A DNA stretch of 50,269 bases from Thermoflexales bacterium. Lineage in GTDB: Bacteria; Chloroflexota; Anaerolineae; B4-G1; SLSP01. The notes beneath the pieces are model-generated. The model was not told the origin of the DNA. It searched no databases and was given only the letters and a program-made list of their open reading frames with translations. This document shows positions 8,450 through 25,653 of this stretch, piece after piece. Position numbers and translations under genes: made by a program. Numbering within the stretch: the first letter of the stretch is position 1; each line of letters begins with the position of its first letter. The stretch spans positions 1 through 50,269 of the forward strand of contig SLDA01000262.1 of assembly GCA_007125545.1 (NCBI GenBank), read 5' to 3'.

Positions 8450-8477
8450 ATGAGCCTCCCTACAAGAATCGGACAGG

Positions 8478-8514
8478 AAAAAAGCCCATACCTGCCACGC
8501 CAAGGTACAGGCTT
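8478..8514 (-). terminator. Rho-independent terminator upstream of the phosphohexomutase gene
   Basis: Minus strand AAGCCTGTACC-ttggcgtggca-GGTATGGGCTT followed by TTTT (11-bp stem including wobble pairs). Confidence 0.75.
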
Positions 8515-8625
8515 TCCCTCCCCTATACTCGAATCGTAACCCAAGCACGTCGCTTGTCAAGGCAGGAACATCCCAGTCATCCGCAAGACATCGTGCAGGG
8601 GCGCCCGAGATAGGGCAACTACCGG

Positions 8626-9276
8626 CTACTCGCTCTTCGGAATCCGCCCATAGGTCTGAAGAGCATGTCGCAAGCGCACCATTTGTAATGTGCTGGTAAG
8701 GTCGCCTCGTGTGCGCTCCAGCACACCACGAAGCTGATCGACGCGGCGTCGCAGCCCTCGGGTAATCGCATCGGGATAGCCAATCGACATCAGCACTTCA
8801 TAGATAGCGTCCATAGCGGCGAGCAGTCGCTCCGCTTCGTCGAATTCCTCCTGGCGCAGCAGATCAAGGCAGCGGCGCCGCAACTCACTTGCAGCTTCGC
8901 ACACACCGTTGAGGTAGGTATTGAGGGGTATGCCGGCCTCCTCGACCGAAGGCAAGTCACGATGCGAGATCAAGCGCAATGTCACCCGTGCTTCGACCAA
9001 CTCCTTAAGTGCATCCTGAGTATAACCCGCATAGTACAGTTCCGGGTAAGGTGCAAGCAAAGTCTGCATAGCGCGTCCAACCTCATCAGCCTCAGCCAGT
9101 AAGGTCTCTGCCTGATCCCACTCCCCACGGTGTCCGGCGCGGATTGCATTAGAGCAGAGCCGAATGAGTTCACGGCTCTGCTGTAAGGCCTCATCGCGCG
9201 CCCGATTCTGCACACCCAAGTCCTCCTCGGCGAGAGAGGATAGGGCTTCTAACCAGGCTTGTAGCATATCATCCAT
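8626..9276 (-). CDS. Translin-family-like helical protein
   Basis: All-helical; QQSRELIRLCSNAIRAGHRGEWDQAETLLAEADEV..., QDALKELVEARVTL, GIPLNTYLNGVCEAASELRRRCLDLL..., LRRRVDQLRGVLERTRGDLT resembles prokaryotic translin homologs. Confidence 0.7.
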   Translation of the reverse strand: MDDMLQAWLEALSSLAEEDLGVQNRARDEALQQSRELIRLCSNAIRAGHRGEWDQAETLLAEADEVGRAMQTLLAPYPELYYAGYTQDALKELVEARVTLRLISHRDLPSVEEAGIPLNTYLNGVCEAASELRRRCLDLLRQEEFDEAERLLAAMDAIYEVLMSIGYPDAITRGLRRRVDQLRGVLERTRGDLTSTLQMVRLRHALQTYGRIPKSE

Positions 9277-9282
9277 CGTACT

Positions 9283-9603
9283 TTACTCCGTCTCCGGGGA
9301 TGGCTGGGTACCAAAGAAGGAACGGACGAGGTCATCACCCTCGCCGGGTACCAGAATCTCCCCATAGTTAGCCTCATATTTGGCCAGGTTTTCCTGGAGT
9401 GCTCGCAATGTGAGTTTGGCATTGAGAGGGGTCATGATGATTCGCGAACGCACCCGTATCTTCGGCTGATTTGGCAGCATTTGCGCCAGATCGACGATGA
9501 CTTCGGAAGGCGTATGCGAGATCATGGCGAAGTTTGCGTACACCGGTTCGAGTTCGGCCGGCAACTCGACATTCAAAGATCGAGGTTTGGGCTGCGACAT
9601 CAT
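9283..9603 (-). CDS. DUF3467 domain protein
   Basis: LEPVYANFAMISHTPSEVIVDLAQMLPNQPKIRVRSRIIMTPLNAKLTLRALQENLAKYEANYGEI. Start set to MMSQPKPRSL; the longer ORF runs into ssb. Confidence 0.8.
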   Translation of the reverse strand: MMSQPKPRSLNVELPAELEPVYANFAMISHTPSEVIVDLAQMLPNQPKIRVRSRIIMTPLNAKLTLRALQENLAKYEANYGEILVPGEGDDLVRSFFGTQPSPETE

Positions 9604-9612
9604 GCCTCCTGA

Positions 9613-9645
9613 TAAAACAACAGAGGGGAGCATTCCCCTCTGTTG
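9613..9645 (-). terminator. Rho-independent terminator between ssb and the DUF3467 gene
   Basis: CAACAGAGGGGA(9618-9629)/TCCCCTCTGTTG(9634-9645), 12-bp perfect stem with 4-nt loop; minus strand continues TTTTATC. Confidence 0.85.
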
Positions 9646-9670
9646 TCGACTATGATCTGGGCAAAGAACG

Positions 9671-10096
9671 CTAGAACGGAATATCGTCGTCCCGGGGTTG
9701 ATCTTCCAGCGCGCGCCCTCCCTCGGGTCCACTGGGACCTGCTTCACCACGTCCACCCAGCAAGACCAGGCGATCGGCCGTTAATTCAAAGCTGGCACCG
9801 TATGTCCCATCATTACGCTGATAGACTCGCGGCCCACCCGTGGCCTTATCCACCTGCAGGTATCCTTCTACCATCACCTGGCGTCCTTTGGCAAGGTACT
9901 GCGCAGCGACCTCGGCAGTGCGACGCCACGCTGTTACGCGGAACCAAGCGGTCTCCTCGCCACGAGAACCGTCGGGACTGTTCCAGACTCGGTTAACGGC
10001 TACATTTAAGGTGGTTACCGGTGTGCCGTCCGGCGTATAACGCATCTCGGGGTCGCGCCCCAGATTTCCTACAATGATCACTTTCTGGTAGGCCAT
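9671..10096 (-). CDS. ssb: Single-stranded DNA-binding protein
   Basis: MAYQKVIIVGNLGRDPEMRYTPDGTPVTTLNVAVNRVW..., ETAWFRVTAWRRTAEVAAQYLAKGRQVMVEGYL; acidic tail DDDIPF. Confidence 0.96.
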   Translation of the reverse strand: MAYQKVIIVGNLGRDPEMRYTPDGTPVTTLNVAVNRVWNSPDGSRGEETAWFRVTAWRRTAEVAAQYLAKGRQVMVEGYLQVDKATGGPRVYQRNDGTYGASFELTADRLVLLGGRGEAGPSGPEGGRALEDQPRDDDIPF

Positions 10097-10156
10097 GTAG
10101 CTGACTCCTTCCTGTCCAGAGGGCTGCTGCTTACTGTTGCGGGAGTGATGTCATTT

Positions 10157-10184
10157 ATTGTATACCAGCCGTCGCAAAGATCAA
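10157..10184 (-). promoter_or_regulatory. Sigma-70-like promoter for ssb
   Basis: Minus strand TTGATC - 16 nt - TACAAT. Confidence 0.5.
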
Positions 10185-10211
10185 CCACCACGAACCCGTT
10201 CCGCGCACACC

Positions 10212-10976
10212 TCAGCGAGATTCTCCCTCGATAAAACAGACCAGTCCTGCGACGATGCCATTCGCTACCACATCGGGATGTTCCGTCAACAGCGCGCGAT
10301 CATCTAACATAAAACCTGCTTCGATAATGGCAGCGGGAGTATTCGGGTTGATCTCATAGAAAGCGTGGTATCGGGTCATATCATACGTAATCGTGTCTTG
10401 ATCAAAGGGGAGCCCGGTGATGCTACCGTAATGATGCCTGAGGCATTCCACGAACCGATCTTCAGGATGTGGAATGTAGCTGGCTTCCGCACGTGCCACT
10501 TTAAAACCGGTCTTACCTGGCACATTGCAGGAATCTGCATGGATGGAGAGCAGAGCATCAGCTTGATACCCGTTCAGCCGTACGTCGAACTCCTCCAACT
10601 GGTGCACTTGCCAACCGTATCCTGCCAAGAGACGGACAACTCGCTCGGCGACCGCCAAGTTGATCTCGACTTCCGTCAGTCCGTCGGGGCACATAGCTCC
10701 AACATCGCTGCCGGAGTGACCCGCGATGATGCCAATTCGGGGAACGTGCGGGGTAGGTGTGAATTCTGGGGTCGGCGTCGCCGTAGGCACGGGGGTTCCA
10801 AGCTGAATCACGATCACGCTTTCAGCCGGAGTGAGCTCACCGCTCGCATCTGTAGCAATAGCAACAATCGGTACAAGGCCGACCGGAACTGCAAAAGCAG
10901 CCAGGAACGTGACGAGCACGAGTCCCCGCACCAACCATCCGATTGCCCAAGGGTCTGCTTCCGTACCCTCTTTCAT
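10212..10976 (-). CDS. N-acetylmuramoyl-L-alanine amidase (Amidase_3), membrane-anchored
   Basis: N-terminal TM; RIGIIAGHSGSDVGAMCPDGLTEVEINLAVAERV; LSIHADSCN; PAAIIEAGFMLDD. Confidence 0.88.
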   Translation of the reverse strand: MKEGTEADPWAIGWLVRGLVLVTFLAAFAVPVGLVPIVAIATDASGELTPAESVIVIQLGTPVPTATPTPEFTPTPHVPRIGIIAGHSGSDVGAMCPDGLTEVEINLAVAERVVRLLAGYGWQVHQLEEFDVRLNGYQADALLSIHADSCNVPGKTGFKVARAEASYIPHPEDRFVECLRHHYGSITGLPFDQDTITYDMTRYHAFYEINPNTPAAIIEAGFMLDDRALLTEHPDVVANGIVAGLVCFIEGESR

Positions 10977-11010: not shown

Positions 11011-11799
11011 TTACCGCATGCGGCGTTTCCATTCATCTTTGACCTTTATCTTATCCCAATTGTCGCCATAGGTCAAAAAATCTCGGAGCAAGCGGTTGAA
11101 CTTGCTACTTTCCTCCAGCATAGGGAAATGCTGTGACCCTTCAAACATATAGGCGTACGCATTGTATTCGAGGGTGCTCAGCGCGAACTCATCCGGCGGC
11201 TGAATGATCGTATCTTCCTGTCCACTCACAAGGAGCACCGGAACGTCCAAGCTTTGCACGGCACCAAGCACGTTCTGGCTGAGGATCGAGCGCACGCTCT
11301 GGACGACTGCCTCTCCATCCGTCTTGCCCGCCTCGAGATCTACTTCTTCATAGGATTTGAGCCGTCGGCCCAAAATAGCCCGGGCGGGATTTGCTCCACC
11401 GGCAAATGTGCTGAGGGGACGCGCGATATTCGCCGCAGAGAATGGCATATTGACCGTCATTATCTGCTCCACACGATCGGTGTGGGTGAGGGCGAAATAG
11501 ACGGCGACCACCGCACCAAGTCCATGCCCGATGATAGGCAATCGATTGAGCCCCATATGGTCCAGGAAGAGCTCAACCTGTGCGACATACCCAGACAAAC
11601 TGTAGCGCGCCCGGATTTTGTCCGAATCACCAAATCCCCAGAAGTCCACGGCATAAGCACGATAGGACGATGACATATCCACCATCGTCGGAACCCAGTA
11701 CCGCCACGAACCCAGCCAGTCGTGGAGGAAAAGTAAAGGTTTACCCCTTCCCAGGGCTTCGTAATGCACGAGGCTGCTGTCGAGTATAACTGCGCTCAT
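11011..11799 (-). CDS. Alpha/beta-hydrolase-fold protein with missing nucleophile (GHGLG)
   Basis: VHYEALGRGKPLLFLHDWLGSWRYW; IIGHGLGAVVAVYFA in place of GxSxG; acid (GQEDTII) and His (GSQHFPMLEE) retained. Paralog of 21189..21980. Confidence 0.88.
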   Translation of the reverse strand: MSAVILDSSLVHYEALGRGKPLLFLHDWLGSWRYWVPTMVDMSSSYRAYAVDFWGFGDSDKIRARYSLSGYVAQVELFLDHMGLNRLPIIGHGLGAVVAVYFALTHTDRVEQIMTVNMPFSAANIARPLSTFAGGANPARAILGRRLKSYEEVDLEAGKTDGEAVVQSVRSILSQNVLGAVQSLDVPVLLVSGQEDTIIQPPDEFALSTLEYNAYAYMFEGSQHFPMLEESSKFNRLLRDFLTYGDNWDKIKVKDEWKRRMR

Positions 11800-11826
11800 T
11801 GACGTATGTGGGTTACAGCACCCAAC

Positions 11827-12204
11827 TCAAGCTTTCCCCATCTCCGCTAAGACTTGTCGCACGCGTTCGATCAGCTCATCCGGCGCAAAAGGCTTGAGTA
11901 TGTACTCTACAGCTCCGACCCCCAAACCTTCCTGAATCTCACTCTCCTGTCCTTTGGCGGAGAGGAAAATAATAGGGGTATCCTTTGTCTCGGGTAGAGA
12001 CTTGAGAGCTTCGCATGCCTGGTATCCCGTCATCCTTGGCATACGGACGTCCATAAGTATCAGATCGGGATTCAAGGATGGAGCCAGCTCGACCGCTTCC
12101 ACGCCATTGGAGGCGACGTGCACTTCAAAACCTGCAAACTGGAGCGTAAACGAGATCAGGTCCCGAATATCGCGTTCATCCTCAGCAACCAGAATTCTGG
12201 CCAT
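11827..12204 (-). CDS. Single-domain response regulator (REC)
   Basis: MARILVAEDERDIRDLI; PDLILMDVRMPRMTGYQ; PIIFLSAKG; YILKPF. Phospho-Asp intact. Confidence 0.93.
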   Translation of the reverse strand: MARILVAEDERDIRDLISFTLQFAGFEVHVASNGVEAVELAPSLNPDLILMDVRMPRMTGYQACEALKSLPETKDTPIIFLSAKGQESEIQEGLGVGAVEYILKPFAPDELIERVRQVLAEMGKA

Positions 12205-12205
12205 T

Positions 12206-15200
12206 CTACGACTCCTTCTCCACAGTATCCGCACCAAAGAAAGCAGATATACCCATCATCAACTCTTGAGTCTCGGAAACAAAGTGGACTCCTCCGAAGC
12301 CTTGTAACTTCTCGCGAACTTGCCCACCGTCCATCCCCGTGCCCCCGGCCAAGGCCGAGATCACGACCACCGGGATATCAGCCGTGCGCGCATCCCGACG
12401 CAAGCGATCCAGAAACTCACCGCCATCGATGTCCGAGGTACCCAAAACCAGCACCAATGCCGCCGGCTGTAGATCGCGGGCAAAACGGAGAGCTTGCTCA
12501 CTGCGCAACGTCGTGCGCACGGCAATCCCAGCTTGCTGTAATGAAGACCGAAGCCGGCCGAGGGCCTCACGGTCGCCTCCAACCGCCACAACCGTTTCAT
12601 GCCGCTGCAGCGTGCGCTGGACTACCCTCACCACCTGAGGTGCACTAAGCGGCTTGGTCAGGTAATCGAGTGCCCCCAGCGCCATCCCTCGTTCACGGTC
12701 GGCAAGGACGGACACGATCGCGACAGGAATGTCAGCGGTCTCGGGGTCGCGTTTGAGCAATTGCAGTACCTCCAGCCCATCCAAGTCCGGGAGACGCATT
12801 TCAAGAGAGATGAAATCTGGTAGCTTCTGCCGCGCCAACCGAAGAGCAGCCTCACCGGAGCTTACGGTCAGCACCTTCATCCCCTCAGCCTCGAGGGCAA
12901 CCCGCAGGAGTTGTCCGAATTCGGCATCGGCATCCACCACAAGAATTGTGGGTGCAGAGACGGAGAACGTGCAGGGTGGCAGATCCCCAACATCCGCGGT
13001 CGGTTCTCCTGCAGCCAGCGGCAGCGAGAAGGTGAAAATACTACCCTCCCCCAACTCACTCTCTAGCCAGATGCTGCCACCGTGCATCTGAATCAGGGAG
13101 AGCGATATAGCAAGCCCTAACCCCGTACCCGACACCTCGTATACTGCGGGGTCATCTTCCACCCGAGAGAACCGCTCGAAGATCCTTTTCTGATTCTCAG
13201 GTGCAATGCCGATGCCCGTATCTGCGATCGCTATATGCATCATGCCCGCGCGCACATAGGCATAGATTGTGATATCGCCCCCGATCGGCGTGTACTTGTA
13301 AGCGTTGCTGACCAGGTTGGTCAGGATCTGAGCCAGCCGGTCCGGGTCACAGAATACCTGAGGCAACTGGCTCGGCAAAACAGTCGCCAATGTCTGATTT
13401 TTCTCCTTGATTTTCGGTTGCACCAAGTCCATGATCTGGCTAATGAGCGCCTCAACGGATTGGGGTCTACACAAAAGCTCGATCCGACCCTGCTCGATCC
13501 GCGAGATATCGAGCAGATCGTTGACGAGATTTGTTAGCCGGTCTGCGTTCGTCTTGACCTTCTTCAAGAACTCGGCCTGCATCGGCGGAAGCTGGCCCAC
13601 CGCACCGTGGATCATCAGGTCAACATAGCCCACAATAGAGGTCATCGGGGTACGCAATTCGTGAGAGACCGTGGAGACAAAATCACTCTTGGCCCGGTCG
13701 GCTTCGATCTCTACGGTGATATCCCTAAACACGGATACCACACCCAAAAACTCCCTGGTCTCGGAGACCACCGGCGAGAGATGAATGCTCACGAATCGTC
13801 GTCCCACTTCCAGTCGATGTGCCAGGTAGGTCTCTGTCCCATGATGCTGAGGTTTATCACGCCAGACTGCAACCTGAGTCATCCATTCGTGTGTCTCACA
13901 CCCATATAATCCGAAAATCTCATCCTGCGAGCGCCCCAACGCCTGTTCTCTGGCAATGGACAGGATTCGCTCCGCCGCCACATTGAAAAGGATGATGCGT
14001 CCCGAGGCGTCAGCCACCATCACCCCGTCGGCGATGCCCTCAAGGATGGCTTCAGTCTTGGCAGCATCGATCTGCTGCACCCGGAGCATCGTCCCGAGAC
14101 GTTCAGCCTGCTCTCGAATCAACCGGTAGAGCTCCGCGTTGTTGAGAGCGTTGCCTAACTGCACCGCTGCGGCTTCAACGAGCCGCAACTGGGTCTCATC
14201 AAACACATCGACGACGGGTGATTGCAGCAGGATCACGCCCACGGATTCCCCACCACCACCCAGAATGGGAACCGCCATAACCGAGCGGGTCGTTTCATCG
14301 CACTCCAGCGCTAGCCGACCCTCTTTCAGTACGTCGGGGATGATGAGCGGTTCTCGCGTCTGCAAAACAGATCCAACGAGACCTTCACGGCGACCGGAGG
14401 GAACCACCTCTCCGCCCGGCGGGATCGGTTGCGTATGACCGATTGCTGCTCGATATAAGAGCTGCCCGGTATTATGATCCAGCAGAATGACGGCGCTACG
14501 CGACGCGCGTACGGCGCGCTGAAGCAATATCAAGGCTTGGCTCAGGACCCGGTCCATATCAAGACTTGCCACAAGTTCTGAAGCGATGCGGTACAGAATC
14601 TCCGACCGGTCCCGTTGGAACCGCAGCCGTTCAAGCGCTTCGCCTAACTCCTGCGTTCGATCGGCTACGTGCCTTTCCAATTCCTCGTTGAACCGTTTAA
14701 CCTCCTCAAAGAGACGCACGTTGTCCACAGCGACAGCGACCTGATCGGCCAACGCCGTGAGCGTCGCAACCTCCGCCGGAGAGAAGTCACCCGGCTCTTT
14801 ACGGTCTGCAGTGAGCACACCAACCGTCCTTCCCTCAACGCCGAGTGGAACCGCGACGGCGGATCCGACCGGGACACGCCAACCTGCATATCGCTTATCC
14901 TCAGGCGCGTTTTCCACTACTAGGGGCATAGCAGTGCGAACCACATCGCCGATAAATCCCATACTTTTGCTTACAGGGAAATCCGTGACGTAATCTAGCG
15001 TATACCCTGAAGAAGCCATCGGTGTGAACTGATCCCCACTGTTTTCAGCGAGAAAAATCGTCGAGTAGTCATAGCCAAGCAAATTCGTTACCGACTGGAC
15101 CACGGTATTGAGAACCAGAGGCAAATCGAGCTTGGTGGCAATTGACCGGCTCAGTTCGTTGAAGAGCTGCAGCGTCGACACCTGTCGACGCAAGTCCTCG

Positions 15201-17272
15201 ACCAGCCGGTGATTCTCAATCGCTTGCGACACCTGGGCTGCGAAGACCTCTACGACCTCGGCGGTTAGGGCCGTCGGCGCAAGTCCATCTTGCGGCATAT
15301 CCACCGACATAATCCCGATTGTATTGCCTCCGCTGTCTTTGAGGACAACGAAGAAGAAGTCCTCCAAATGCCACCGGTTGGGCTTATCGCTTGCGACGGG
15401 TAACTCGTGGACAAAGACATCCAAGTCATTTGTCAATGCGCGATGTTGCTCGGGAATATAATAGCACTGACCCATGCGGAACTGCTCCTGGCAGAGGCGC
15501 CGTACTCGCTCCCAGGGCAAGCGAAACTCTTTCCGCTTTTCGAGTTCCACCAAGGGCATGCCCGCCCCCGCCACACGCCGCAGATAATTGCCCTCGAGCA
15601 CACTTATCAGCACGACATCAAATCGCGTGCCCTCCTGAACTGCATAGGACACATCCGACAGAATATCCCCAAGAGAGCGGTCGGAACGCACGGTACGACT
15701 GATCTCCAACAACAGCGACATCTGCTCTGCCCGGCGGTGCATCAATTCGCCGCGGCGTAGTTGCTCCTGATAGCGTTGTGCATTCCCCACAGCCAAGGCC
15801 GTTTGGCCTGCCAAGCCTTCAAGGAACTCGACCGCGGCGGGCCCAAAAGCACTGACCCTGCGCGACTGGAGCAGAATCGCAGCCGCCATCCGCTGCTCAT
15901 AGAAGACAGGAACCATCACAAACGACTGGGCGCCGAGTAACCCGCACTCATTGTCGTCAGATTCCCTGTCCCCTTTCCAGTGAATATCGGTCTCGGACGT
16001 TGTTTGCTCGAACTGAAGCCATCTGGACAAGTGAGACTCCGGATTGGCCACAGCAGCTTCTGCAGCCGTCAATTCCGTGGCCGTATAGCCTCGCGATGCT
16101 CGAATTCGGCGAGAGTCCTCCAGCATAATGACAAAGCCGGCATCCGCCTCGGCATTCCTAATGCCTTCCTCCAGTACAACATTCAGGATACGATCGAGAT
16201 CAATAGTAGAGGTAATTTCGCGCGTGACGCGTTGCAGCGCTTCCAGAGCGGCAAAGCGCCTGCGGAGCTCGGCATCCGTCCGAGTATACAACCGGGCATT
16301 CTCGATGGCAGAAGCAGCCTGCGCGGCGAATAATTCCGTCAGTTCCCGATGGTGAGATGAAAAACGGGCCGGTTCCGCCGCCACGATCTCCAGAGTGCCG
16401 ACCAGTTGATTTCGAGCCATCAACGGAATGCCCAAGTACGAACGTGCCCGCGCGGCAAGTGTATGACCCGCCGGATAGATCATCCCGTCCGATGCGAGAT
16501 CCGCGATCAAAAGTGAGCTGTGATGCCGCACCAACCATCCAGATAGTCCTTCATCCGTCCCGTAGACGGCGTCGACGGAATCAGGACGATGGCTCAGCAC
16601 CTCGCTCGCGCGGTAGGCGCGTCGCACCAGAAGGTCTCGCTGAGAATCGTAGAGCGTGATCTCACCTTCGTCATAGGGGACCAAGGTATTCAACGCTTGC
16701 AGGACCTCGTCCAGGGTATCCTGCAGTTCGAGCGACTCATTGATTGTACGCCCTAAATAGTGTAGCGTTTCCAGTTCTCGAACCCGTTGGGCACGCGCCT
16801 GATTTATGCGATCTTGTCGGATAAGACTTGTAGCAGTCAAGCGGGCCATTTCGCTTATAAACAGTCCGGCATCCCAATCTGTAGCCTCGAACGGCCCCTG
16901 CGACCGCCGGAGCACAAGCCATCCCGCCCATGGATCGACCGTGATCGGTAGAAAGAGAAAATGCTGCGCCGTCTGAGGCGCCGTCTGAGGCGCCGTCCGA
17001 GATACCGGATCGGGCCGTGGCGTTAATGTCAAGCCCTTCGGCTCAATGGGAAACGCCGCTTTCGTCAGCGCCAGATTGAAGTCGCCGAAATCGTTGCTAC
17101 CGTTGCCCCCATAGCGCAGGACTTGAGCTTGGGGCGCAGACCAGATCCAGGCACCATCTTCTGCCCGGAGAAATCGCACAGCCAACGTCAACACCTCCGA
17201 CCACACCTCGTCGAGATGAGAAGCGGAGCCTAACTGCTGCTCAATGCCGGCTAACTCCGTCAGATGCGCCAA
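12206..17272 (-). CDS. Giant hybrid histidine kinase: ~6 GAF-like, PAS, HisKA, HATPase, 2 REC
   Basis: DFVSTVSHELRTPMTSIVGY (HisKA), LTNLVSNAYKYTP / DTGIGIAPENQKRIFERF / GTGLGLAISLSLIQMHGG (HATPase), repeated GAF segments, two C-terminal REC-like domains. Confidence 0.95.
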   Translation of the reverse strand: MAHLTELAGIEQQLGSASHLDEVWSEVLTLAVRFLRAEDGAWIWSAPQAQVLRYGGNGSNDFGDFNLALTKAAFPIEPKGLTLTPRPDPVSRTAPQTAPQTAQHFLFLPITVDPWAGWLVLRRSQGPFEATDWDAGLFISEMARLTATSLIRQDRINQARAQRVRELETLHYLGRTINESLELQDTLDEVLQALNTLVPYDEGEITLYDSQRDLLVRRAYRASEVLSHRPDSVDAVYGTDEGLSGWLVRHHSSLLIADLASDGMIYPAGHTLAARARSYLGIPLMARNQLVGTLEIVAAEPARFSSHHRELTELFAAQAASAIENARLYTRTDAELRRRFAALEALQRVTREITSTIDLDRILNVVLEEGIRNAEADAGFVIMLEDSRRIRASRGYTATELTAAEAAVANPESHLSRWLQFEQTTSETDIHWKGDRESDDNECGLLGAQSFVMVPVFYEQRMAAAILLQSRRVSAFGPAAVEFLEGLAGQTALAVGNAQRYQEQLRRGELMHRRAEQMSLLLEISRTVRSDRSLGDILSDVSYAVQEGTRFDVVLISVLEGNYLRRVAGAGMPLVELEKRKEFRLPWERVRRLCQEQFRMGQCYYIPEQHRALTNDLDVFVHELPVASDKPNRWHLEDFFFVVLKDSGGNTIGIMSVDMPQDGLAPTALTAEVVEVFAAQVSQAIENHRLVEDLRRQVSTLQLFNELSRSIATKLDLPLVLNTVVQSVTNLLGYDYSTIFLAENSGDQFTPMASSGYTLDYVTDFPVSKSMGFIGDVVRTAMPLVVENAPEDKRYAGWRVPVGSAVAVPLGVEGRTVGVLTADRKEPGDFSPAEVATLTALADQVAVAVDNVRLFEEVKRFNEELERHVADRTQELGEALERLRFQRDRSEILYRIASELVASLDMDRVLSQALILLQRAVRASRSAVILLDHNTGQLLYRAAIGHTQPIPPGGEVVPSGRREGLVGSVLQTREPLIIPDVLKEGRLALECDETTRSVMAVPILGGGGESVGVILLQSPVVDVFDETQLRLVEAAAVQLGNALNNAELYRLIREQAERLGTMLRVQQIDAAKTEAILEGIADGVMVADASGRIILFNVAAERILSIAREQALGRSQDEIFGLYGCETHEWMTQVAVWRDKPQHHGTETYLAHRLEVGRRFVSIHLSPVVSETREFLGVVSVFRDITVEIEADRAKSDFVSTVSHELRTPMTSIVGYVDLMIHGAVGQLPPMQAEFLKKVKTNADRLTNLVNDLLDISRIEQGRIELLCRPQSVEALISQIMDLVQPKIKEKNQTLATVLPSQLPQVFCDPDRLAQILTNLVSNAYKYTPIGGDITIYAYVRAGMMHIAIADTGIGIAPENQKRIFERFSRVEDDPAVYEVSGTGLGLAISLSLIQMHGGSIWLESELGEGSIFTFSLPLAAGEPTADVGDLPPCTFSVSAPTILVVDADAEFGQLLRVALEAEGMKVLTVSSGEAALRLARQKLPDFISLEMRLPDLDGLEVLQLLKRDPETADIPVAIVSVLADRERGMALGALDYLTKPLSAPQVVRVVQRTLQRHETVVAVGGDREALGRLRSSLQQAGIAVRTTLRSEQALRFARDLQPAALVLVLGTSDIDGGEFLDRLRRDARTADIPVVVISALAGGTGMDGGQVREKLQGFGGVHFVSETQELMMGISAFFGADTVEKES
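16966..17001. repeat. 12-nt x3 in-frame tandem repeat inside the hybrid kinase gene
   Basis: gcgccgtctgag gcgccgtctgag gcgccgtccgag; encodes ...TAPQTAPQTAQ-like residues (RTAPQTAPQTAQHF). Confidence 0.9.
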
Positions 17273-17307
17273 TGTAACCCCTTACTCAGTTAAGTGACCC
17301 CGTTGAC

Positions 17308-18198
17308 CTAGCTAATGCCCCGCCGCCGTGCCTCGGCGGCCGCTTCAGTGATTTCTCGAATATCGGTGAAGGGGCCATCGGCGGATCTCAATGTCCCGAC
17401 CGCCAAGTTCATAAGTGGAGCCTGCAAGGCATTATCCTCATCATCCTTCACAACCAGATATCCCTGCATTCGACTTATGAAATCATAATGGGTTCCCACG
17501 TCGTCATTGAACTGCTTAACGATCTCGTCGCGAAGGGGACCTACTCTATCAGCCTCACTGATCACGATAAAATCGTTGCCGCCGATGTGTCCGACAAAGT
17601 CACCGGGCGTGCCACGTTCCTCCACGGCATGGTTGAGAACCATACCCGTGAAACGCAGCACGTCTTCGCCTGCCACAAATCCGTAAGCTTCATTGAAGTC
17701 ATCCAGCCCGCGAATCCCAAGGTAGATAATGCCCCAGTCTTCTCTCAGCATAAGCTCACGCAGTTGCTGCTCAATCAAGCGCCCACTTGCCAAGCCGGTA
17801 CTGGGACTGGTCAAACTGGCGATCTCGGCACTCTTAATCGTGTTCCGCACACGCAAGCGCAGCTCTTCGACATCAAAGGGCTTCGTAATATAATCGTCCG
17901 CGCCCAACTCAAGCCCATGGATCTTGTCGCTCCGCTCATCCCTCTGAGTAAGGAAAATGATCGGGATATGACTCGTACGCAGGTTCGTCCGCAGCCTCCG
18001 GCACACCTCATACCCATCGAGGTCAGGAAGCATGATATCGAGCACAATCACATTGGGCATTTTCTGACGTGCCAAATCGAGCGCCACACCTCCTCGCAGC
18101 GCAACATGCACCTCATATCCCTGCGACTTGAAGTAAAGCTGCAGCATATTGGAGATATCGGCATCATCTTCTACTACCAGGATGCGACCCTCGCTCAT
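17308..18198 (-). CDS. Response regulator with degenerate GGDEF-like output domain
   Basis: ILVVEDDADISNMLQ; PNVIVLDIMLPDLDGYE; DDYITKPFD; GDFVGHIGGNDFIVIS (GGNDF in place of GGDEF). Confidence 0.9.
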   Translation of the reverse strand: MSEGRILVVEDDADISNMLQLYFKSQGYEVHVALRGGVALDLARQKMPNVIVLDIMLPDLDGYEVCRRLRTNLRTSHIPIIFLTQRDERSDKIHGLELGADDYITKPFDVEELRLRVRNTIKSAEIASLTSPSTGLASGRLIEQQLRELMLREDWGIIYLGIRGLDDFNEAYGFVAGEDVLRFTGMVLNHAVEERGTPGDFVGHIGGNDFIVISEADRVGPLRDEIVKQFNDDVGTHYDFISRMQGYLVVKDDEDNALQAPLMNLAVGTLRSADGPFTDIREITEAAAEARRRGIS

Positions 18199-19280
18199 CC
18201 CATTCCTCCTGCGTAGGCTTGCGCCCTCACCTTCTGGATCACAATGTCATCAAGTTTCTGCTCATAGCTCCGCAGAGCTGCCAACGAGAACCCATGTCTG
18301 GTGGCGATAGCCTCGATGCGCCGGATGTTCGTCAGCGGAATATCCTTGCCCAACGAGTAATCCTCGAAGAGCCCTTCAAAGGTTAAGGCCATTGTCTCAG
18401 CCATACATCCATAGGTCATCCCTGCCGGAAGACCGTAGTCAAATCCAAAATCGACCGCTCCAGGAACTCTGACCAGCCCCCCGTCGATAACCAGCACGTC
18501 CTGTCTTTGCCGGCTCGTCTGCCACGACACATCACGTGGGCGAGAGACATCGCAGACTATGGCACCACGCTTCAGTATGTCGGGCGTTACTAGAGCACCA
18601 CCCGAGCTTGTGACGGTCACAACCACATCAGCCGTCTGGATCTCGTCCACATCGGTTGTCAGGGAAATGTTTGCGTTTCCTGCAGCGGTCACCGCCGCCG
18701 CGGTGACCTGCAGGCGCGCAAGATCGCGTCCCACAAGCAGCATATTCCCGCTTCGGGGCGCGAGTAGTTGCGACACCGCACGACCAATAGCTCCTGATGC
18801 ACCGACCACCGCAACCTGGGCAGAGCCAAGATCGAGGCCCATACGAAGCACCGCCTCAATCGTGGCCTCCACAGAGACGGCTACTGTATAACTATCACCG
18901 CTTGTGACCCCGATATCAAGCTCGCGAGCGATGGTCAAACCCCCGTCACCGACGACCGAGGTATACGCCCCGAGACCGAGCATCTTTGCACCCAGACGCT
19001 CTGCGAGGTGGCCGGCAGCAATGATTTTGCGATAGACCTCCGCGGGCGGAAGCTCCAGCATGCGGCGTGCTGTATAGGGGACGGCAATCAACCAGCCCTC
19101 AATCTCTTTCCCTGTGGCGATCGAGCGCGCTCCTGTGATCCGCGAAAGCTCAACCGGGGGCCAGAATTGTGACAAAAAGTGAATGGCCGATTCCGGCAGC
19201 ACCCTACCGAGAAGCGGGTACTTGCGTGACACATCGCGCTTGGGATCGAGGGGGTGAATGATGAACGCAAAGGAGTCCAT
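18195..19280 (-). CDS. Long-chain acyl-ACP reductase (AAR)-like / Rossmann NAD(P)H dehydrogenase
   Basis: MLGLGAYTSVVGDGG...VTSGDSYTVAVSVEATIEAVLRMGLDLGSAQVAVVGASGAIGRAVSQLLA; GLPAGMTYGCMAETMALTFEGLFEDYSLGKDIPLTNIRRIEAIATRHGF. Layout and C-terminal Cys motif match cyanobacterial AAR from memory. Confidence 0.78.
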   Translation of the reverse strand: MDSFAFIIHPLDPKRDVSRKYPLLGRVLPESAIHFLSQFWPPVELSRITGARSIATGKEIEGWLIAVPYTARRMLELPPAEVYRKIIAAGHLAERLGAKMLGLGAYTSVVGDGGLTIARELDIGVTSGDSYTVAVSVEATIEAVLRMGLDLGSAQVAVVGASGAIGRAVSQLLAPRSGNMLLVGRDLARLQVTAAAVTAAGNANISLTTDVDEIQTADVVVTVTSSGGALVTPDILKRGAIVCDVSRPRDVSWQTSRQRQDVLVIDGGLVRVPGAVDFGFDYGLPAGMTYGCMAETMALTFEGLFEDYSLGKDIPLTNIRRIEAIATRHGFSLAALRSYEQKLDDIVIQKVRAQAYAGGMG

Positions 19281-19282
19281 AG

Positions 19283-20536
19283 TCAATCCCGCGGATAGAG
19301 TCTGGGATGTAAGGTCTCTCCCTGAGCCAGCTTCAGGTGATCGCTTTCTTCCCACAGCACATTTTTGCGAATGACCCGGCGGTCGGCGGTCGCAAATAGG
19401 ATGACATCCGAGTCGATCATTCGCGCCGGGAAGATGACCAACCCGGATCCAATGCGAACGTTGTGTCCGACCGCCCCGCCAATTGCCGTCATGCCCGTCT
19501 CCTCCAACTTACCCCCGAAGTAGGAGCGAATTGGGCGATCGACCAAGTTGAAATCTGTAAAGGTGTTCCCGGCTCCGATGAAAGACCGCCGGCCCACCAC
19601 GCACATCTGTAGGCAGGTATTCTGCGCTACCATGCAATCCTCCATCAGTACACTGCGGTAAAGGGACGCGCGGAACGGCAAGAAACAGCCATCTCCCACG
19701 ACGCTGAGCATCAACTGGCAACCCTGATCGATGGTTACATTGTCACCGATGTAGCAATTGCCGATCACGACACCGGGGCCGATGTGGACGTTGTTGCCGA
19801 TGACAGTGGGTCCTTGGACTGTGACGGTAGGATCGATACTACAGTTCTTACCGATCTTGACCAACTCAGAGGTCTCAAGCACCTGTTTTCGTTCCAGCAT
19901 CCCGCGCCATAACAAACGCAGATTCAACTTCAGATCGCGTTCGGCGCTCTGCTCGAAACGGGCACCTACCGCAAAGATCCCAAAATCGATGTTAGCGTGG
20001 AGAACATGCAACCAGTGTTCGACCGACAGAAAGGGTTTCGTGGGCAGGTCGTAGACCAGATCGCCATATTGATTGGACATATGGGTCGGGATGTGGTAAA
20101 AGCCAATCTCGCGAGACTCTGTATCCATCACGAGTGGGCGCACCACCGGCTCAATACCGTAGGGATAGTACCAGAGGTCAGCTACGAAGTAATTACCCTG
20201 CTGGCGGATACCGCGTTGAAGAAAGACTGCGTGTCCCACAAGTGCGGGATCATCGAGAGCAAAAGCCACCTGACACGCCTTGCCGGATGCCTGCGCCCGT
20301 GTGACAAACTCCTTGATGAACACCTCATCGAAGTAGAGATTATCGCGGTAGACGAGCATCTCTTCTCGCTCCGCCTTGATCTCCAGGAGTGAGTTCACTT
20401 CGAGCTCTTCCGTGGTGTAGGTTGCCAACACATCACGCTGGTGCAACCAGAGCGGCTTCGTCAGCACACTCAGTTCACGCGCCGGCTCGTTGAAGGGTGC
20501 TATCTTACGGCGATCTCGCAGAATAATCTTACGCAC
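19283..20536 (-). CDS. Left-handed beta-helix (hexapeptide repeat) nucleotidyltransferase/acyltransferase-like protein
   Basis: IGKNCSIDPTVTVQGPTVIGNNVHIGPGVVIGNCYIGDNVTIDQGCQ... hexapeptide repeats. Confidence 0.82.
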   Translation of the reverse strand: MRKIILRDRRKIAPFNEPARELSVLTKPLWLHQRDVLATYTTEELEVNSLLEIKAEREEMLVYRDNLYFDEVFIKEFVTRAQASGKACQVAFALDDPALVGHAVFLQRGIRQQGNYFVADLWYYPYGIEPVVRPLVMDTESREIGFYHIPTHMSNQYGDLVYDLPTKPFLSVEHWLHVLHANIDFGIFAVGARFEQSAERDLKLNLRLLWRGMLERKQVLETSELVKIGKNCSIDPTVTVQGPTVIGNNVHIGPGVVIGNCYIGDNVTIDQGCQLMLSVVGDGCFLPFRASLYRSVLMEDCMVAQNTCLQMCVVGRRSFIGAGNTFTDFNLVDRPIRSYFGGKLEETGMTAIGGAVGHNVRIGSGLVIFPARMIDSDVILFATADRRVIRKNVLWEESDHLKLAQGETLHPRLYPRD

Positions 20537-20547
20537 GTCGTCACATC

Positions 20548-21192
20548 CTATGAAGCATGGTCCAGAGGAATCCTGTCAATGCAGAGCGTACACACAGGAT
20601 CGCCACACGCTATGCACGTCGTCTCTTCAACAACGAAATGACGACCGCGGCTGACCCAGAAAAGTGATTCTTCCAAGATGCCGACTGGAAAGGAACACGA
20701 AGGCTCATCCGAGTGCCGCTCCGAACAGAAACCACAGGCCTCCAAGGTGAAAAAGAAGCTGTCCCTGCCCTCACCCAGCGTCACCTGCTGACCCGAGTAA
20801 CGGTTGAAGATCTCGGCCAGAACTTCGATGCCGATTCGCACCCGCAGTACCGGTGGCAAGAGACGTAGAGCAACGTCGGCCACACTGATCGCGCCGCCAA
20901 ATCCCTCCATCCAGTACTTAAAGCTCTCCCTACCCGCCTGCCGCAGCAGGCGCTGCCCGCCGCTCACACCGTAGATGTCCTCAATAGCCTGGGATAACCG
21001 ACCAACCTCTGCAAAGGTTAGCCCTTTTTCAAAGTCAGGGGGCGGATAATTGCCGATCAGATGAGGCAATCGCGCCGTTGTTAGAACAGCACTGTGACCA
21101 TTAGCACCCAGAACATCCGCACTTGCCAACAAGAGTATGCGAGATATGCGGTTTGGAAAGCAAGCATAAAGGTGTGCCCGATCCTCGTTCAC
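20548..21192 (-). CDS. V4R (4-vinyl reductase) domain protein
   Basis: FKYWMEGFGGAISVADVALRLLPPVLRVRIGIEVLAEIFNRYSGQQVTL...ACGFC...EESLFWVSRGRHFVVEETTCIACGDPVCTLCI. GTG start overlaps the upstream stop. Confidence 0.78.
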   Translation of the reverse strand: MNEDRAHLYACFPNRISRILLLASADVLGANGHSAVLTTARLPHLIGNYPPPDFEKGLTFAEVGRLSQAIEDIYGVSGGQRLLRQAGRESFKYWMEGFGGAISVADVALRLLPPVLRVRIGIEVLAEIFNRYSGQQVTLGEGRDSFFFTLEACGFCSERHSDEPSCSFPVGILEESLFWVSRGRHFVVEETTCIACGDPVCTLCIDRIPLDHAS

Positions 21193-21980
21193 AAGTCCTT
21201 GGCCAGAAATCCCAAAATAGCTTCGTGAAAACGGTGCATTTCATCCAGCATTGGAAAGTGCCCCGACCCATCAAAATAATGGATCGTCTGGTTGTTCACG
21301 CCACGCCGGAGCAATTCCGCTTGCTTCGGGCTGACAATATTATCCTTCCGCCCGTATATACCCATTGCAGGCACGCGACACTCGTGAAGCCGTGGGCGGA
21401 GATCAGCACGGCGCAAATCCCGAATGCTGCGCGAGAATGACTCCATCGTTGTGCGCGAAAGATCTTGGCTGAGCATATCCCAGAGCGTGCGCCAGTCTTG
21501 CGCATAGGTAGTCGACAGTAACCGAATCAGTGCCGGCAAGAGCCCCGGAACGCAGTACAGTAACCGAGCGACCTGTGCGTTACCCGCACACTTCAAGAGC
21601 AAACTCAATCCTGAGCCTACGATCGGCGAACCGACGACGGCAACTTTGGAGACCCGCTGAGGGTGTGAGAGCATCAGAGCCAACGAAACTGTCCCGCCCA
21701 TTGAGTGGCCCATCACCTGCGCGGATCCCAATCCCATGCGGTCCATAAATTGATCCACCATTTCGACATACTCGTCGACAGAGAAAGCACCCTGTTTGGC
21801 AGACTCACCGAAACCCCAGAAATCAAGCGCATAGGTCTTATACTGGTGCTGTGCCAGAAACTCCATGGTCGAAAGCCAATAGTTCCACGACCCAAGCCAG
21901 CAGTGTAGTAAGACTACGGGCTTGCCTCGCCCAAAAGTCTCATAGTGTACGATACCACGATCAGTAACGATTGAGCTCAT
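21189..21980 (-). CDS. Alpha/beta hydrolase with intact catalytic motifs
   Basis: VHYETFGRGKPVVLLHCWLGSWNYW; VMGHSMGGTVSLALML; GRKDNIVSP; GSGHFPMLDE. Confidence 0.92.
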   Translation of the reverse strand: MSSIVTDRGIVHYETFGRGKPVVLLHCWLGSWNYWLSTMEFLAQHQYKTYALDFWGFGESAKQGAFSVDEYVEMVDQFMDRMGLGSAQVMGHSMGGTVSLALMLSHPQRVSKVAVVGSPIVGSGLSLLLKCAGNAQVARLLYCVPGLLPALIRLLSTTYAQDWRTLWDMLSQDLSRTTMESFSRSIRDLRRADLRPRLHECRVPAMGIYGRKDNIVSPKQAELLRRGVNNQTIHYFDGSGHFPMLDEMHRFHEAILGFLAKDL

Positions 21981-22030
21981 AGCAATAATGGCGCCCGCGC
22001 CACACCGGCTCAACGGAAGTGCGTTGCCTG

Positions 22031-22564
22031 TTATTCCTGGTCCATCAACTCGAGTATCGAGTAGAGCAATTCCAGTAAAACCTGCTTCACACTCTCCTTG
22101 TCATGAGCCACGCACGGCACAACTTTGATACCGGATTCCACTCGCAGCACAATTCGCAAGTCCTCAGGCGACCATGCATCGTCTAAGTCCTGTTTGTTTG
22201 CCGCTACGATATATGGAACGGTGGAGTAACTGCGAAACGTATCAAGAATACGCCGAGCTTCCCTGAAAGTCTCGGGTCGTGTACTATCAACCATCACCAC
22301 AAAGCCCAGCATTCCCTCTGACAAAATCTCCCACATAAAGTTGAAGCGCTTCTGACCCGGTGTACCGAATAGATAGAGGATTAAGTCGTCATCGATCGTG
22401 ATGCGTCCAAAGTCCATCGCGACCGTAGTATGGTTCTTGATCCGCTCTGATTCACTGCTAATCTTCCGCTCGGTCGAAACGACATCAATCTCGCTGATCG
22501 CTTGGATGAGCTCGGTCTTGCCCGATGAAAAAGGGCCGGTGACGACGATCTTCAACGTTTGCAT
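22031..22564 (-). CDS. Small Ras-like GTPase (MglA/CvnD-like)
   Basis: IVVTGPFSSGKTELIQAI (P-loop), LYLFGTPGQKRFNFMWEIL (G3), IVAANKQDLDDAW (G4). Confidence 0.92.
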   Translation of the reverse strand: MQTLKIVVTGPFSSGKTELIQAISEIDVVSTERKISSESERIKNHTTVAMDFGRITIDDDLILYLFGTPGQKRFNFMWEILSEGMLGFVVMVDSTRPETFREARRILDTFRSYSTVPYIVAANKQDLDDAWSPEDLRIVLRVESGIKVVPCVAHDKESVKQVLLELLYSILELMDQE

Positions 22565-22567
22565 CAG

Positions 22568-23419
22568 CTACAACTCCCGAATGCGCCGAATCAATTTATG
22601 AATGATGCCACGCTTCACGGCTGGACGATGCATCTCGGGTTTGACGGTTGAGGAAGCAGGTCCGCCATCGGACTTAGCCCCTGCCGGCGCTGCCATCGCG
22701 GCCCGCGGTGCACGAACCATCTCGACTAGCCCCGCTTGCAGCAACCCATAGACAATCTTCCGAATCTGGAGTTCGTCCATATTATTGTACTGGGCAACCT
22801 GTCGAATCGTGTTGCGGGGATTGATGAAGGAAATGACCCGCCATTCCTCTACGCTAAGCTTGATGTCGCGCAAGGGTGTTGAGGGCCTTTCGGCAAACTT
22901 GAGGGCCACATCGAGGTTGGGCAGCTCATCTCGCAGCAGTTCCCACTCTTTGAGCCGCCGGTTGCCCTCCATAATCACGTTCTCCAGGGCTATGGACGAG
23001 GTGATTCGACCCCGAATCGGCAACTCAGAGGTCTCAAATCGGAAGGTCCCCCGATTCCACGAGAAGACCTGATACACAACGCTGAGCGTATGGTCACGCA
23101 AGTGGCCCAAGACTACCTGCTGCTTGAGTCGTCCGCTGGTAATCAGCACCTTTGCCACGTCCTGATCGGACTTGCCGGCCATGTTCTGCTTGATCATACG
23201 GACATGCTCGGAGGTGAAAACACCAGCACCCTGCAAAACTATGGGGAGAGAATCATCAACGCCTGACATAGCCGCATAGACAAGCTTGCCCTCCCGGAAA
23301 CACAGGTGAGACTGCTTCTCCGGGCCTTCGAGGTACAGCGTACCGGTCTTGCGAGCCAAGTTGATAAGATTCAGTAGCTGGGTAATCCCAAAGTCCTCAA
23401 GCTTACCTTTTAGCGCCAT
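22568..23419 (-). CDS. DUF4388 (PATAN) domain protein
   Basis: MALKGKLEDFGITQLLNLINLARKTGTLYLEGPEKQSHLCFREGKLVYA; C-terminal winged-helix-like segment. Confidence 0.88.
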   Translation of the reverse strand: MALKGKLEDFGITQLLNLINLARKTGTLYLEGPEKQSHLCFREGKLVYAAMSGVDDSLPIVLQGAGVFTSEHVRMIKQNMAGKSDQDVAKVLITSGRLKQQVVLGHLRDHTLSVVYQVFSWNRGTFRFETSELPIRGRITSSIALENVIMEGNRRLKEWELLRDELPNLDVALKFAERPSTPLRDIKLSVEEWRVISFINPRNTIRQVAQYNNMDELQIRKIVYGLLQAGLVEMVRAPRAAMAAPAGAKSDGGPASSTVKPEMHRPAVKRGIIHKLIRRIREL

Positions 23420-23500: not shown

Positions 23501-23531
23501 ACCATTATAATGGTCTTCTAACAATCGGCAA
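23501..23531 (-). promoter_or_regulatory. Promoter for the DUF4388-GTPase operon; -10 embedded in a 14-bp palindrome
   Basis: Minus strand TTGCCG - 16 nt - TATAAT; accattataatggt (23501-23514) is a perfect palindrome. Confidence 0.6.
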
Positions 23532-23627: not shown

Positions 23628-25439
23628 CTAATCCGACTTCAGCTGAGTGGCCTGCTTCAGAATCTCATGTGCACCGCGCTCGGCTGAAGTACCCTGTGTA
23701 CCCAGCATCTGCGCCAACTCAGCGATCCGCTCCTCTGTCTCCAACGGCTTCACGTGGGTGACCGTGCGCCCGTCTGCCACTTCCTTGACCACTTTGTAAT
23801 GCACGTCCCCAAAACCGGCCAACTGGGGAAGGTGGGTGATGCACAAGACCTGGTGCTGCACTTCGGATGCTTCGTCGACGGCCGTCAGCTGCCACAGCTT
23901 GGTTCCCACGACCGCTCCTATGCGCCCTCCGATTCCCTGGTCAATCTCGTCAAATATGAGGGTAGGCGTCCGGTCGGCGCGCGACAGGACCGTCTTAAGC
24001 GCCAGCATCAGCCGCGCGGTCTCACCCCCGGATGCGGTACGTGCGAGCGGCTTCAGTCCCTCACCAACGTTGGGAGCAACCAAAAACTCTATGCGGTCGA
24101 TGCCGGTCGCGTCAAAGGCGATCCGGTCGGCGAGCGCACCCTCCGAATCTCCTAAGCCGGCGCTACTTATGGTCAGCTGGTGGGGCAGGGGCCTCACCAC
24201 GGGAAGACCGTCCTCGGCCGGTTGCCACGTGAAGGCAACTCCAAACTGCGCCCCCGCCATCCGGAGATCATTAAGTTCCATTTCTACTGCCGAGGCCAAG
24301 CGCTCCGCAGCCTCCTGGCGCTGCTGCGAGAGTTTTTGGGCAAACTCCGAGCAGCGGGCGAGGAGCGTGGCTTCTTCTTCCTGAAGCTGGGCAATGCGTT
24401 CGTCGCTGTGCTCCAAGGTGCCCAACTCCTCGGCGGCTCGCTCCCCGTAGGCCAGCACCTCGCCGAGATCTCCGCCATACTTGCGCTCCAGATGGCGCAG
24501 TACGATCAGACGTTCTTCTACCCAGGCCTGGCGCTGAGGGTTGAACTCCACCTCGAGCACATAATCGCTCAGGGCCCGGGCCAGATCCTCAATCTGGTAG
24601 ACAGTTTCATCAAGCATCTCTGCGTGCGGCTGCAGCGTGGCATCGATACGTGCCAATCCGGCCATATCTTTCTGACTGCGCCCCAGCATATCGAGTACCG
24701 AGGGTGCTCGCTCCTGGCCTTCTTCCAGCCGCGTAATAATTCCGGAAGCGAGATTGACGAGCTGCTCCACATTGCTCAACCGCACCAACTCCCCCTCCAG
24801 TTCCTCCTTCTCTCCCGGCTTGAGAGCTGCGGCCTGGATTTCCTCGACCTGGAAACGCAACAGATCAATGCGCTGCATCCTATCACGCTCACTGCTGAGG
24901 AGATCTTTGAGCGTCCGCCGGATTCGGCGAATCTCACCAACGGACTCAGCCAACTGCTTTTGCAGCGGTTCCAGCCCGGCGAAGCGATCCAGCAGCGTCA
25001 GATGTTCGCGCACGCGCAGGAGGCTCAGATGCTCACTCTGACCGTGCACGTCGACCAAAGTCTCGGCAATTTCGCGCAGCAATGAGAGCGAGACAGCCCT
25101 CCCGTTGACGCGTGCTACAGCACGTCCCGAGCTGCGCAGTTCGCGCGCGAGCCAGAGTGTGTCCGGCGTATCACCATCCAAACCTTCACGCTCAAGAGTG
25201 GGCATAAGAGACGCCTGAAGCGAGGGGGAGAGGACAAACATAGCTTCCACGCGCGCGGAATCTGCGCCCTGGCGAATGGCGGTGGTGTCTGCACGCCCGC
25301 CGAGGACCAAGGCAACAGCGTCGATGAGGATCGACTTACCAGCTCCGGTTTCGCCTGTGAGGATGTTGAACCCACGCTCCATCGTCAAGTGCAGGGCGTC
25401 AATGATGGCAAAATCCTCAATATGAAGTTCTCGTAACAC
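23628..25439 (-). CDS. recN: DNA repair protein RecN
   Basis: MLRELHIEDFAIIDALHLTMERGFNILTGETGAGKSILIDAVALVLGGRA; ARTASGGETARLMLALKTVL; LIFDEIDQGIGGRIGAVVG. Confidence 0.97.
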   Translation of the reverse strand: MLRELHIEDFAIIDALHLTMERGFNILTGETGAGKSILIDAVALVLGGRADTTAIRQGADSARVEAMFVLSPSLQASLMPTLEREGLDGDTPDTLWLARELRSSGRAVARVNGRAVSLSLLREIAETLVDVHGQSEHLSLLRVREHLTLLDRFAGLEPLQKQLAESVGEIRRIRRTLKDLLSSERDRMQRIDLLRFQVEEIQAAALKPGEKEELEGELVRLSNVEQLVNLASGIITRLEEGQERAPSVLDMLGRSQKDMAGLARIDATLQPHAEMLDETVYQIEDLARALSDYVLEVEFNPQRQAWVEERLIVLRHLERKYGGDLGEVLAYGERAAEELGTLEHSDERIAQLQEEEATLLARCSEFAQKLSQQRQEAAERLASAVEMELNDLRMAGAQFGVAFTWQPAEDGLPVVRPLPHQLTISSAGLGDSEGALADRIAFDATGIDRIEFLVAPNVGEGLKPLARTASGGETARLMLALKTVLSRADRTPTLIFDEIDQGIGGRIGAVVGTKLWQLTAVDEASEVQHQVLCITHLPQLAGFGDVHYKVVKEVADGRTVTHVKPLETEERIAELAQMLGTQGTSAERGAHEILKQATQLKSD

Positions 25440-25469
25440 CGTTGATATGCACTCCGGTCCCTGATGATC

Positions 25470-25490
25470 GTTGCATGTTTATGATGCAAC
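25470..25490. promoter_or_regulatory. 7-7-7 inverted repeat in the recN / HMG-CoA reductase divergent intergenic region
   Basis: GTTGCAT-gtttatg-ATGCAAC. Confidence 0.55.
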
Positions 25491-25653
25491 CCCGTTTCGA
25501 GAATAACCCAAACTATGGAGAAAGCAAGGCATTTCAGGGTCAAGACCGTTAGAAATGCGTTACAAGAGTATGAAAAGGGTAAGAAATGCTATCTTGATAG
25601 CTTTTGGAAGAGCTGCTGTGATATCATTGCTGCGAGGAGGGAGAGACCCAATT

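Follow-up and report, generated by a model that had tools for sequence, protein, structure and literature searches.

Gene content and layout of the locus

The window, i.e. the whole stretch of 50,269 nucleotides of Thermoflexales DNA that was analysed, carries ten genes on the minus strand between positions 11011 and 23419, transcribed from 23419 towards 11011. The first gene encodes a 283-aa DUF4388 protein of PATAN type (22568..23419; PF14332, E=4e-26), found in 41 of the 42 loci with full flanks described below, and the second a 177-aa Ras-like GTPase with motifs of MglA Group 5 type (22031..22564). These are followed by ABH1, an alpha/beta hydrolase with an intact GHSMG nucleophile motif (21189..22013, likely start ATG 21980; PF00561, E=1e-30); a 214-aa V4R protein (20548..21192); LbH, a 417-aa two-domain left-handed beta-helix protein resembling GlmU and GMPP (19283..20536), assigned from PF00132, alignment, a structure model and a fold search; and a reductase of the PigE-N/AAR acyl-thioester type (18195..19280) with a catalytic-type cysteine, Cys317 (numbered from GTG 19355). 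Downstream lie a response regulator with a degenerate GGDEF domain (RR-pseudoGGDEF, 17308..18198; GGNDF in the window), a 1688-aa multi-GAF/PAS hybrid histidine kinase that ends in two receiver domains (12206..17272), a single-domain CheY-type response regulator (11827..12204; PF00072, E=4e-31), and ABH2, an alpha/beta hydrolase-fold paralog whose nucleophile is lost (GHGLG; 11011..11799).

The initial annotation had described these ten ORFs as same-strand and tightly packed, and all are present with near-zero gaps. With start codons picked by homology (ATG 19280 for the reductase, ATG 12204 for the CheY-type regulator), successive genes are spaced by 3, 17, -4, 11, 2, -4, 35, 1 and 27 nt in the direction of transcription (range -4 to +35). 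Of the gene overlaps first noted, those of ABH1 with V4R and of the reductase with RR-pseudoGGDEF are real (4 nt each), whereas those of LbH with the reductase and of the kinase with the response regulator in the mechanical ORF list are artefacts of upstream GTG or TTG starts. The proposed domain names also stood: Pfam and NCBIfam searches back every named domain of the ten genes, V4R falling below the Pfam threshold (25.6 bits against a cut-off of 31) but being confirmed by alignment and an AlphaFold2 model. Domain searches revealed no gene for a DNA-binding protein within the locus. Upstream of the first gene, the sigma-70-like site with the highest score (TTGCCG-16-TATAAT, minus strand, 23504..23531) is suggestive only, since such sites are common by chance, with 13 found in the region against 8.1 +/- 3.1 expected.

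Conservation of gene order in Anaerolineae

The reductase was searched for throughout the class and genome contigs were scanned as well, the scan returning 80 contigs, all from Chloroflexota; together this yielded 110 loci. The reductase, by which the loci were chosen, is necessarily present in each, but the selection has no bearing on how the other nine genes are ordered. When the genes of the window were mapped onto the 110 loci, order and strand were the same almost everywhere. Among the Anaerolineae loci with full flanks, 40 of 42 keep the order and strand of the window; all ten genes are present in this order in 28, V4R alone is missing from 9, the two-component half is missing from 2, and other arrangements are found in 3. 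When the ORFs from 86 long loci were clustered, nine large clusters emerged that correspond to the ten families (ABH1 and ABH2 cluster together), and no other family occurs in more than 11 of the 86 loci, so that the boundaries at 11011 and 23419 coincide with the conserved boundaries. Set against this ceiling for outside families, the retention of order and strand in 40 of 42 loci is beyond chance. The co-location assumed in the initial annotation is thereby borne out across relatives, and it is close to certain that the ten constitute a single conserved cluster.

The kinase and metabolic halves of the cluster overlap by 4 nt in the window and lie a median of 12 nt apart in relatives. Of 149 further genomes that were sampled, 45, representing 17 families, have a reductase ortholog (at least 45% identity). 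A V4R relative is found in all 45 reductase-bearing genomes, compared to 25 of the 104 without the reductase, in counts that ignore shared ancestry. The surroundings behave differently from the cluster: closest relatives share SMC/HMGR upstream and amidase-SSB-DUF3467-Translin-like genes downstream, whereas in more distant genomes these flanks are gone and the ten genes stay.

Several local features of the neighbourhoods were also noted. In the window, the flanks at 7025-10976 (PGM, Translin-like, DUF3467, SSB, amidase) and at 23628-27051 (SMC-like, HMG-CoA reductase) are syntenic in the closest relatives only. In some lineages a V4R gene is found at the end of the cluster, downstream of ABH2 (loci L044, L045, L047, L057 and L092). 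Upstream neighbours named by eye, namely a UvrA-like gene in Chloroflexia and GNAT-like genes in some Anaerolineales, were taken to be specific to those lineages.

Reductase, hydrolases and beta-helix protein

Alignment with PigE (4ppm) and AAR (6jzq) spans the reductase and places the active-site cysteine in register: Cys317, equivalent to AAR Cys294 and PigE Cys296, is present in 75 of 75 relatives. The NADPH-binding glycine motif G185-A-x-G188-x-x-G191 is conserved as well, and the AAR-like reductase of the initial annotation thus keeps both hallmarks. Both NCBIfam equivalog cut-offs are missed (208.7 against 850 and 94.3 against 449.7), which makes the protein a relative of AAR and PigE rather than an equivalog. 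Evidence for thioester reduction has been presented for PigE, and its Cys296 has been equated with AAR Cys294 (PMC8341465).

The two hydrolase-fold proteins have diverged at the nucleophile. In ABH1, GHSMG is found in 65 of the 67 readable sequences and another serine in one more (Ser in 66/67). In ABH2, all 59 sequences have G, D, A or N at this position, the serine of GxSxG being absent; what had been called a second hydrolase paralog therefore has the alpha/beta hydrolase fold but has lost its nucleophile serine throughout. The variant GHDLG of 13 ABH2 proteins resembles nucleophiles of the epoxide hydrolase type, and these proteins might retain a different chemistry.

The gene first labelled a beta-helix transferase does encode a beta-helix protein, which is better described as a two-domain protein of the GlmU/GMPP kind: in a fold search with the LbH model (pLDDT 84), both domains align with ST0452, GMPP and GlmU. 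The GxGTR signature is absent from the consensus of 45 LbH sequences, whose N-terminus reads approximately IILxxxxxIxPFNEPARDL. Given the lack of this nucleotidyltransferase signature and what looks like a shortened N-terminal domain, the activity of LbH is uncertain. Directly before LbH, seven loci (L055:3569-4270 and six others) carry a gene for a membrane protein of 233 aa in which an RKxxHxxxG motif like that of phytol/dolichol kinases was recognised by eye; the two of the seven proteins that were searched gave no Pfam or NCBIfam match.

Two-component proteins, V4R and GTPase

RR-pseudoGGDEF retains the phospho-Asp (Asp54) in 75 of 75 proteins. The GG[DE]EF motif occurs in none of the 75, GGDNF being found in 51, which bears out the degenerate GGDEF initially annotated; an active diguanylate cyclase was rejected on these grounds. 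The H-box of the kinase was found in 68 of 73 proteins. The kinase of the window contains a PAS domain, and its first receiver has Glu at the phospho-Asp position (residue 1491). This substitution is specific to the kinase of the window and is not a family feature: its close relatives do not share it, and most relatives with this receiver keep Asp. Most Anaerolineae kinases stop after the ATPase domain. Two tblastn segments that might have indicated two separate kinases in relatives belong to one ORF of about 2470 aa.

The AlphaFold2 model of the V4R protein (pLDDT 93) matches the folds of H-NOX, MopR, PoxR, MJ1460 and TRAPPC3/Bet3, including phenol-bound MopR/PoxR and palmitate-bound TRAPPC3. 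Searches of PDB sequences with the single V4R sequence gave no match, and with the profile only a weak match to MJ1460. Residues C166, E190, C193 and C201 are at least 90% conserved among 40 V4R sequences with the spacing E-x2-C-x7-C, which is that of the zinc set of MopR. The protein keeps a predicted zinc set of MopR type, three Cys and one Glu, the composition given for MopR (PMC10715001). A shared ancestry of V4R and Bet3 has been proposed (PMC2253512). As to a phenol-type pocket, the anchoring His/Trp pair of MopR was not evident by eye in the V4R alignment. A heme sensor of H-NOX type was rejected despite the likeness in fold, as the 40 sequences have no invariant or nearly invariant His.

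A second V4R (36% identical) and a second response regulator of the same type (46%) adjoin one another at L195:3890-5553 (contig G000:C547), beside a large membrane-protein ORF and away from the main operon of the same genome. This lone pair provides an independent link of V4R to this type of response regulator. Second V4R copies similar to that at L195 were seen in many genomes of the class Anaerolineae.

The GTPase is about 65-90% identical across relatives and carries the motifs GxxxxGKT, (F)GTPGQ and NKQD, with FGTPGQ and NKQD at least 95% conserved. GTPGQ in G3 and [NT]KxD in G4 fit MglA Groups 4 and 5 (PMC4316618), and Group 4 is nearly confined to methanogens, for which reason the GTPase is read, by its motifs, as a putative member of Group 5.

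Two separable modules

In Chloroflexia, the corresponding loci consist of LbH, the response regulator and the giant kinase, usually preceded by V4R and sometimes followed by a hydrolase, with no reductase between them; the GTPase-DUF4388 pair sits away from the kinase locus. The reductase homologs of Chloroflexia (about 41% identity) are part of proteins of about 700 aa. One of these, at L189:565-2631, was seen to comprise 689 aa, with the reductase homolog as its C-terminal part and an N-terminal stretch of about 300 aa that gave no family match. Conversely, the Thermoflexus loci L095 and L105 and those of similar genomes, L150 and L155, have DUF4388-GTPase-ABH1-LbH-reductase alone, without a kinase. 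LbH is what the two arrangements share. Since Chloroflexia do without the reductase and Thermoflexus-type loci without the two-component half, the two halves are separable, and reduction is not essential to the signalling half. The locus is best explained as a conserved ten-gene signalling operon of Anaerolineae, to which a shorter version in Chloroflexia is related.

Possible functions of the cluster

Substrates, ligand, interactions and output of the ten-gene system are inferred here from its observed gene content and order, conservation, catalytic and degenerate residues, and predicted folds. Degenerate enzymes recur in this conserved operon (GGDNF, ABH2, the N-terminus of LbH), which suggests roles in binding or sensing. 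The best single explanation in our opinion, to which we nevertheless give somewhat less than even credence because the halves are separable and the reading rests on sequences and models, is that acyl chemistry is coupled to two-component and GTPase signalling, as the initial annotation reasonably proposed. The reductase would convert an acyl thioester to an aldehyde, and ABH1, perhaps with LbH, would make or remove a related acyl or glycolipid compound. This compound or its level may be read by V4R as a zinc-stabilised domain for hydrophobic ligands, and possibly by ABH2, a hydrolase fold without serine chemistry, as a second reader. The giant GAF/PAS kinase would add cytoplasmic signals and phosphorylate RR-pseudoGGDEF and the CheY-type regulator. 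As the locus includes no DNA-binding protein, output is likely by protein contact, probably via the MglA-type GTPase (Group 5) together with the DUF4388/PATAN protein as its partner, with the cell surface, polarity or the envelope as candidate target.

A possible but less likely explanation is that the reductase, LbH and ABH1 serve ordinary lipid or glycolipid biosynthesis, yielding for example a fatty alcohol, a wax or an envelope glycolipid, and that the kinase, regulators, V4R and GTPase adjust the pathway to lipid supply without any signal molecule being made. The DUF4388-GTPase-ABH1-LbH-AAR set that stands alone in Thermoflexus-type genomes would be expected of such a pathway, as would the GlmU/GMPP-like nature of LbH and the small membrane protein that precedes it in seven loci. 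However, regulatory genes outnumber metabolic genes, the pseudoenzymes (ABH2 and the GGDNF protein) point to sensing, and Chloroflexia keep the regulatory half and LbH without the reductase.

Alternatively, the genes could make up an MglA-like system for polarity or motility. In this case RR-pseudoGGDEF and the CheY-type regulator would control pili or filament behaviour by acting on the GTPase/PATAN pair, the metabolic genes being accessory. Group 5 motifs, the PATAN genes reported near MglA Group 1 and 5 genes (PMC4316618) and a locus devoid of a DNA-binding output gene are in keeping with this proposal; it is nevertheless unlikely, given that an MglB/roadblock gene is missing from the locus and that Chloroflexia, gliders included, have their GTPase-DUF4388 pair somewhere other than at the kinase locus. 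Least probable of all is a loose co-inheritance of two independent, functionally uncoupled modules kept together by descent, which the separability of the halves in some lineages would allow but which sits poorly with ten genes that stayed in order while their flanks changed over the same phylogenetic span, and with the 4-nt overlap that joins the halves in the window.

It is tempting to speculate on a self-contained lipid-signalling circuit, in which an acyl aldehyde or alcohol derived from the reductase is read by V4R and a dead-hydrolase receptor and passed on to the Ras-like GTPase. This is a rather improbable scenario, which if true would represent a bacterial counterpart of the eukaryotic pairing of the TRAPP Bet3 fold with a small GTPase. 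Among filamentous bacteria the Chloroflexota are a major group that has received little study, and ten genes preserved as a system throughout one of their classes probably matter to them. With V4R (Bet3 fold), a Ras-like GTPase, two conserved pseudoenzymes and acyl reduction in one place, the locus offers a concrete test bed for what a prokaryotic V4R senses and for the wiring of MglA GTPases of Group 5.

Comparison with known systems

We found no description of this combination of genes in the open-access literature, in agreement with the initial annotation, and the cluster is apparently undescribed, a variant among GTPase-linked two-component loci. GTPases of MglA Group 5 that have PATAN neighbours (PMC4316618) share with it GTPGQ, NKxD and an adjoining PATAN/DUF4388 gene, but here there is no MglB/roadblock gene and the pair is set in a ten-gene lipid and two-component locus. 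The conservons of actinobacteria (CvnA-D) are likewise conserved small operons with a histidine kinase and a small GTPase. Domain searches and ORF clustering, however, revealed no roadblock CvnB gene and no CvnC gene among the ten conserved families, and G4 reads NKQD rather than the NxFD of Group 2; membership in the conservons was therefore rejected, and the GTPase is MglA Group 5-like rather than conservon-like.

The N-terminal domain of PigE and cyanobacterial AAR match the whole reductase and share its active-site cysteine, whereas the reductase described here is a stand-alone protein within a signalling operon, with neither an aminotransferase nor ADO among the ten conserved families. 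With the V4R sensors MopR/PoxR and the TRAPPC3/Bet3 fold, the V4R protein has in common its predicted fold and the zinc-type set of three Cys and one Glu, but unlike MopR/PoxR it stands alone, without a sigma-54 activator domain. LbH can be aligned by fold over its full length, nucleotidyltransferase-like and beta-helix domains included, with GlmU, ST0452 and GMPP, from which it differs by its low identity (about 12%), the missing GxGTR and the shortened N-terminal domain. Finally, units of RsbQ with a kinase or GGDEF protein are a precedent for hydrolases within sensing modules (PMC3183031). In these RsbQ-PAS modules, as here, an alpha/beta hydrolase is encoded together with a PAS-containing kinase or GGDEF output; the present locus differs in having two hydrolases, one of them without its nucleophile and neither encoded directly next to the kinase gene, and several GAF domains in the kinase.
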